A DNA stretch of 36,660 bases, from contig VGOW01000038.1 in the NCBI GenBank assembly GCA_016875735.1, positions 1-36,660 of the forward strand, given 5' to 3'. Positions 25,694-26,190 of this stretch are shown one piece after another. Each line of letters starts with the position of its first letter. Within the stretch, counting starts at the first letter, position 1. Below the pieces are notes generated by a model. That model did no database searches and was not told where the DNA came from. It saw only the letters and a list, made by a program, of their open reading frames with translations. Source of the stretch: Chloroflexota bacterium (GTDB lineage Bacteria; Chloroflexota; Anaerolineae; Anaerolineales; VGOW01). A program made the translations under genes and the position numbers.

Positions 25694-25723
25694 TTGACTC
25701 GCCGCGCCATCTTCGCTTATACT
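25694..25723 (+). promoter_or_regulatory. Promoter of the mini-ORF/SWIM gene
   Basis: TTGACT (25694-25699), an 18-base spacer and TATACT (25718-25723), divergent from rRNA promoter P1. Transcription would start near 25730, about 150 bases before the SWIM gene. Confidence 0.65.
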
Positions 25724-25757
25724 GCCCATAGTTCTATTACAGGAGGAATACCGCCCT

Positions 25758-25799
25758 ATGAGCGGAGAAGCAAAAACATCGGCACTCAGTTCACCCTAG
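25758..25799 (+). CDS. 13-codon leader mini-ORF
   Basis: ATG 25758 is preceded by a strong ribosome site (AGGAGGA, 25741-25747) and encodes MSGEAKTSALSSP. Its stop codon abuts the base of a strong terminator-like hairpin. It has promoter, ribosome site and terminator in the right order, which is the layout of an attenuator leader peptide; no run of one amino acid hints at the signal. No homologue is known to me. Confidence 0.45.
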   Translation: MSGEAKTSALSSP

Positions 25800-25837
25800 A
25801 AGCACGCAGGCAATCAGCTATTGCCGCGTGCTTTTTT
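25799..25837 (+). terminator. Strong terminator-like hairpin before the SWIM gene
   Basis: AGCACGC-A-GGCAAT pairs with ATTGCC-GCGTGCT around CAGCT, with one bulged A, followed by six T. It ends 40 bases upstream of ATG 25878, so either it ends a short leader RNA or it regulates read-through. Confidence 0.8.
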
Positions 25838-25877
25838 GTTCCCACATCACACCTCTTCCACACAAAGGAGAAACCAC

Positions 25878-26120
25878 ATGGATAGCGGGATGATCAGCAA
25901 AATCGAAAAAGCAAAACGATATGCCAGCGAACGCGACAGGTTCCGCTTCAGCCAATTCTCCGTGCAGTTCCACGGAAGCAACAACGAGCACAACGTCAAC
26001 TTCGACCATGGCGCATGGAAATGTGACTGCGAGTATTTCGTCGTCCACAGTTGGTGCGCGCACACAAAAGCATTGGAAATCCTCCTCGACAAAATGATCG
26101 CCGAGGGAGTGCCAGCGTAA
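25878..26120 (+). CDS. Small stand-alone SWIM zinc-finger protein
   Basis: An 80-residue protein. The segment WKCDCEYFVVHSWCAHTKAL fits the SWIM motif CxCx(n)CxH with the spacing CxC-x8-CxH; SWIM domains bind zinc and contact DNA or protein. An N-terminal basic helix (ISKIEKAKRYASERDRF) and a beta-rich stretch (FSVQFHGSNNEHNVNFDHG) precede it. ATG 25878 has AAAGGAG 7 bases upstream. SWIM domains usually sit in larger proteins (helicases, transposases, Zws1-like); a free 80-residue form is compact. It is transcribed away from the rRNA operon behind a leader with a mini-ORF. A regulatory or DNA-binding role is inference. Confidence 0.85.
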   Translation: MDSGMISKIEKAKRYASERDRFRFSQFSVQFHGSNNEHNVNFDHGAWKCDCEYFVVHSWCAHTKALEILLDKMIAEGVPA

Positions 26121-26148: not shown

Positions 26149-26190
26149 CAAACGGGCAAAGCCGATCGCGGCTTGCCCGTTTGTCGTTTC
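26149..26190 (+). terminator. Terminator after the SWIM gene
   Basis: CAAACGGGCA (from 26149) pairs with TGCCCGTTTG (to 26183), extended inward by AGCCG/CGGCT, giving a stem of about 15 pairs, followed by a T-rich tail (TCGTTTC). It lies 28 bases after the stop. Confidence 0.8.

Follow-up and report, generated by a model that had tools for sequence, protein, structure and literature searches.

A putative ribosome-dependent transcription attenuator upstream of a stand-alone SWIM-domain protein gene in Chloroflexota

In a 36,660-nt stretch of Chloroflexota DNA (the whole of contig VGOW01000038.1; hereafter the window), a short leader ORF ending at the foot of an intrinsic terminator was found ahead of a gene for an 80-aa SWIM zinc-finger protein. 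When tested on relatives, this leader layout is far beyond chance. Based on these sequence comparisons, we propose that the locus may be a ribosome-dependent transcription attenuator dedicated to the stand-alone SWIM-domain protein, a reading to which we give about an even chance of being correct.

Results

All elements of the locus in the window lie on the forward strand. A promoter (TTGACT-18-TATACT, 25694-25723; 10/12 match) is followed by a Shine-Dalgarno sequence (AGGAGG, 25741-25746) and a mini-ORF of 13 codons (MSGEAKTSALSSP, 25758-25799), a putative leader peptide whose frame is kept in relatives. The TAG stop codon of the mini-ORF (25797-25799) sits at the foot of an intrinsic terminator hairpin (25798-25837; core AAGCACGC...GCGTGCTT), which is supported by folding and by covariation in relatives and is followed by T6 (U6 in the RNA) at 25832-25837. 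The final bases of the stop codon form part of the extended stem, and the minimum free energy of the hairpin is -22.1 kcal/mol, compared to -10.2 ± 2.2 kcal/mol in shuffled sequences (z = -5.35). A second Shine-Dalgarno sequence (AAAGGAG, 25864-25870), located 26 nt beyond the U-tract where the hairpin ends, precedes the SWIM gene (25878-26120), in which family comparison located the motif C49-x-C51-x8-C60-x-H62. The first-pass annotation of this DNA had described the same succession of elements, all of which are present, with the mini-ORF start placed at 25758 and the gap between T6 and the SWIM ATG measuring 40 nt rather than 41. It had also read the arrangement as translational attenuation. 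The part concerning attenuation by a leader ORF is supported, since the frame is kept in relatives, but the kind was wrong: the U-tract marks the hairpin as an intrinsic terminator, and the SWIM ribosome site lies outside it, so transcription attenuation would be the more fitting description. Translational attenuation of the erm/cat type was rejected, as the hairpin does not sequester the SWIM ribosome site.

Just 3' of the SWIM gene, a further hairpin (AAACGGGCAA...TTGCCCGTTT, 26150-26182, forward strand) was read from the sequence and left unscored by the terminator scan. It is probably the SWIM gene's own terminator, and the gene is therefore probably monocistronic. The divergent neighbour of the locus is a 16S-Ile-Ala-23S-5S operon, and upstream of the 16S gene, on the minus strand, two near-consensus promoter-like pairs were observed (25616-25588 and 25434-25405; 11/12), with TG before each -10 box. 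The divergence from rRNA promoters pointed out in the earlier annotation is thus real in the window but does not extend to the family: no rRNA was found in the flanks of 250 other related loci, indicating that this neighbour is incidental and peculiar to the window.

Within the window's order (Anaerolineales-type Chloroflexota), the SWIM gene was detected in 265 of 300 genomes, which represent 107 of 113 genera; across the phylum, 158 of 201 sampled genomes contained it. In both samples it was almost always present as one copy per genome. All named related loci were labelled Anaerolineales, Anaerolineae or other Chloroflexi, except for one probably misnamed MAG. Family members have in common an N-terminal helix, a small sheet and CxC-x8-CxH, the same motif as in the SWIM zinc finger PF04434, found here in a stand-alone protein of 80-95 aa. 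The PF04434 profile was matched by 11 of 18 diverse family members (best E-value 3.5e-5), and the window's own copy contains the motif, yet fell below Pfam reporting in the profile search. The AlphaFold model of the protein (pLDDT 88) has a helix-strand-strand-strand-helix-helix order, and a fold search of the PDB with this model gave no significant match (best E-value 0.59). A search of the literature for bacterial stand-alone SWIM proteins found nothing. In one family (loci L133 and L139), the zinc ligands are lost, with CNS...VDSH replacing CxC...CxH and the remainder of the protein conserved. Two SWIM matches, L009 (G012) and G047:C90:505-735, contain one in-frame TAG each.

The genes around SWIM vary: of 251 loci, 58 have a transpeptidase-like gene downstream and about 27 an acetyltransferase-like gene upstream, both names being read from the sequences without a profile search. 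Because of this variation, the neighbourhood is uninformative on the function of the SWIM protein. The transpeptidase-like gene occurs in one group of lineages, on the same strand and about 110 nt past SWIM, and encodes a twin-arginine signal.

To compare leaders, 171 loci were collected and oriented, and their promoters and terminators were located. A total of 124 leaders passed, for which the promoter had to score 10.4 or more, and 72 remained after those more than 70% identical were dropped. The promoter was found in the corresponding place in 124/124 leaders, which is partly by construction, since selection was on promoter score. The p-values given below ignore relatedness beyond the 70% identity filter.

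An ATG was present between the -10 box and the hairpin in all 72 dereplicated leaders (58.6 ± 2.7 in shuffles), and in 57 of them an ATG either had a ribosome site or was positioned as in leaderless transcripts, 5-10 nt from the -10 box (20 ± 4 in shuffles). ATGCG or ATGAG occurred in 42/72 leaders (13.6 ± 3.1 in shuffles); the choice of mini-ORF start favours these two sequences, and the shuffles used for stop positions hold the start fixed. Apparent leaderless mini-ORFs were seen in L042, L046, L050, L052, L053 and L080, where the ATG lies 6 nt past the -10 box and CGA comes next.

The ends of the mini-ORFs were concentrated at the terminator. Stops fell between -12 and +6 from the hairpin start in 35 of the 57 mini-ORFs (19.5% expected; binomial p = 5e-12, relatedness ignored), and only 7 stopped well short of the hairpin, compared to 21.8 expected. 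Furthermore, 50/57 mini-ORFs reached -12 or further downstream, compared to 15/38 ordinary long genes with terminators from the same loci (Fisher p = 9e-7); stops of the ordinary genes fell between -12 and +6 from their terminators in 13/38 cases. Under a stricter automatic rule requiring a Shine-Dalgarno-led ORF that reaches the hairpin, 74 of 132 terminator-bearing loci qualified (7.2 expected), comprising 66/106 within the order (4.7 expected) and 8/26 outside it (2.5 expected), and more clear cases outside the order were recognized by eye (for example L060, L061, L149 and L151). The automatic rule found no hairpin-reaching frame in some families of the order and in several beyond it, and several lineages, such as L143 and L155, did not show the leader layout. 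The first-pass view that such a layout is out of the ordinary for a stand-alone SWIM protein is not right, as the layout is common in the SWIM family.

Mini-ORFs are usually 9-17 codons long, and their peptides differ between genera. In genus g11, the peptide begins with MR/S-L/I-F-H/Y-G followed by variable residues, and codons 2-6 have 17 differences at the second position, compared to 230 at the first and 233 at the third. One g11 genome has a TTG start with the frame unchanged. By this pattern of substitutions, the mini-ORF frame in the genus looks coding. Comparison across relatives shows that selection acts on the reading frame, which as a rule stops at the terminator or within it. The first-pass annotation had made its reading depend on conservation of the mini-ORF, which is indeed kept as a frame in related leaders. 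The conservation of frame and start suggests that the mini-ORF is translated as a leader ORF between promoter and gene, as in attenuators.

Several bases of the leader are conserved. ATGCGA was present in 29/72 leaders, and CGA, a minor arginine codon, was codon 2 in 24/57 mini-ORFs, compared to 1/181 ordinary starts. The conserved hairpin bases are GGCACGCG...CGCGTGCC: CACGC was found in 42/55 leaders of the order, compared to about 5% of 38 ordinary terminators, and GCAC in 38/55 leaders of the order and 10/17 outside it. The hairpin pairs covary, with double changes at 6 of 8 pairs and 97.7% of pairs kept, and the loop ranged from 3 to 11 nt across the scanned leaders. The conserved start region had no complementarity to 16S rRNA (CTCGCA), and no Rfam leader family was matched. 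A covariance model of the leader gave strong matches (E < 1e-3) at the SWIM gene; among 31 genomes, no second copy reached this threshold, and the weaker second matches were unrelated sites. The leader module thus appears dedicated to the SWIM gene.

As in attenuators, an intrinsic terminator lies between the leader ORF and the gene. The distance from the hairpin end to the SWIM start has a median of 35 nt in the 72 leaders, and promoter-like sites past the terminator were found in 1/72, compared to 2.75 expected, so a SWIM promoter of its own after 25837, the other outcome that would have spoken against the first-pass reading, did not appear beyond chance. Because the gap past the terminator leaves too little room for a promoter and is poor in promoter-like sites, SWIM mRNA must arise by read-through.

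Discussion

We hypothesize that the decision between termination and read-through depends on the ribosome translating the mini-ORF. When no ribosome is at the mini-ORF end, the hairpin would form and transcription would stop; when a ribosome close behind RNA polymerase is at the mini-ORF stop, the 5' arm of the hairpin would be covered and SWIM would be transcribed. The mini-ORF stops are placed so that a ribosome terminating at them would cover the 5' arm; otherwise the frame mostly enters the hairpin. Experiments in E. coli have shown that the translating ribosome represses almost completely a terminator located a few bp past a stop codon, and that termination recovers once the spacing exceeds about 27 nt (PMC4824070). 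The stop positions, taken with this repression, make occlusion the best reading of the leader, and from the geometry and the E. coli experiments we infer that active translation would turn SWIM on. Such a switch would gauge whether translation keeps pace with RNA polymerase rather than the supply of one amino acid; sensing of a single amino acid is disfavoured because the peptide sequence varies. A caveat is that, over the first 100 nt, the first ribosome seldom catches up with RNA polymerase in the absence of polymerase pausing (PMC4824070); on this account, the leader could plausibly gauge how fast the two machines run relative to each other. Occlusion is also weakened by the 7 of 57 mini-ORFs that stop well short of the hairpin and by the families in which the automatic rule found no hairpin-reaching frame.

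A different use of the ribosome is known from uORF attenuators that sense ribosome stress. In a stall-sensing attenuator of the whiB7, vmlR or amino-acid type, a slow or arrested ribosome early in the ORF would favour an antiterminator, and SWIM would be induced by translation stress. The parts list of promoter, short uORF, terminator and downstream gene matches, and CGA at codon 2 in 24 of the 57 mini-ORFs could slow the start of the ORF; this codon is the only one that recurs in the listed peptides, which otherwise vary and contain no regulatory codon run. However, no antiterminator signal emerged when either arm of the hairpin was tested for pairing with the leader: duplexes between the 5' arm and the upstream leader were no stronger than in shuffles, with a mean z of +0.25 and no value below -1.5, and the start region and hairpin arms did not co-vary. 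As no classical antiterminator was seen, the leader departs from the classical amino-acid or stall-sensing type, although it resembles stress-sensing uORF attenuators, and we consider stall sensing unlikely. Alternatively, the mini-ORF and terminator may constitute an independent tiny gene or small RNA, with SWIM expressed from a constant leak through the terminator. The promoter-ORF-terminator unit is complete, and ordinary genes also stop near terminators (the 13/38 above), but mini-ORF stops are nearer to the hairpin, or lie within it, when compared to the stops of ordinary genes, the reach to the hairpin is conserved between genera where the peptide is not, and the strong model match occurs at the SWIM gene without a second strong match elsewhere. 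We regard such independence as rather improbable.

Simple occlusion does not account for the strong conservation of the hairpin bases and ATGCGA. Autoregulation would draw on exactly these features: termination or translation of the mini-ORF would be controlled by a factor, the SWIM protein itself or another, that binds to the hairpin or to the AUGCGA start region. The GCAC counts in and outside the order exceed the needs of a terminator, and ATGCGA recurs in 29 of the 72 leaders. On the other hand, nucleic-acid binding by the SWIM protein is putative, the loop length ranges from 3 to 11, and hairpins are retained in the family (L133, L139) that lost the SWIM ligands, leaving this explanation doubtful at best. 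It is equally speculative that the SWIM protein itself reads AUGCGA and the GGCACGCG hairpin, which would make it a phylum-wide, single-copy, self-controlling regulator of transcription-translation coupling in Chloroflexota. Short ORFs are common, but a chance arrangement is excluded by the comparisons of starts, stops and the automatic rule in relatives; ordinary translational coupling is unlikely because the mini-ORF stop, 78 nt from the SWIM start, is too far away, and the hairpin leaves the SWIM ribosome site uncovered. Chance or simple coupling is accordingly a most improbable account of the locus.

The proposed attenuator shares with E. coli pyrBI a leader ORF translated up to the terminator, with no need for an antiterminator; judged from the stop positions, translation of the mini-ORF would likewise reach the terminator. 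The pyrBI leader ORF is longer and senses UTP through polymerase pausing. Different from pyrBI, the ORF here is usually 9-17 codons and the target is the SWIM protein. The whiB7/wblC, vmlR and bmrCD uORF attenuators also combine a short uORF and an intrinsic terminator with a downstream regulatory or resistance gene, but published accounts of them involve alternative structures or induction that depends on stalling, whereas no alternative structure was found in the SWIM leader. In Sinorhizobium meliloti, a uORF attenuator of a DUF1127 gene, which encodes a small protein whose function is unclear, similarly lets the translation state of the uORF control transcription; it is Rho-dependent and has no intrinsic terminator at the stop codon (PMC12218461), and the SWIM leader differs from it in its intrinsic terminator, protein and phylum.

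A tiny leader that is kept in most of the order and recognizable in other classes implies that SWIM expression must be tied to translation. The locus seems to represent a natural attenuator acting by direct ribosome occlusion without an antiterminator, and it offers a testable handle on a very widespread, uncharacterized SWIM protein of Chloroflexota.
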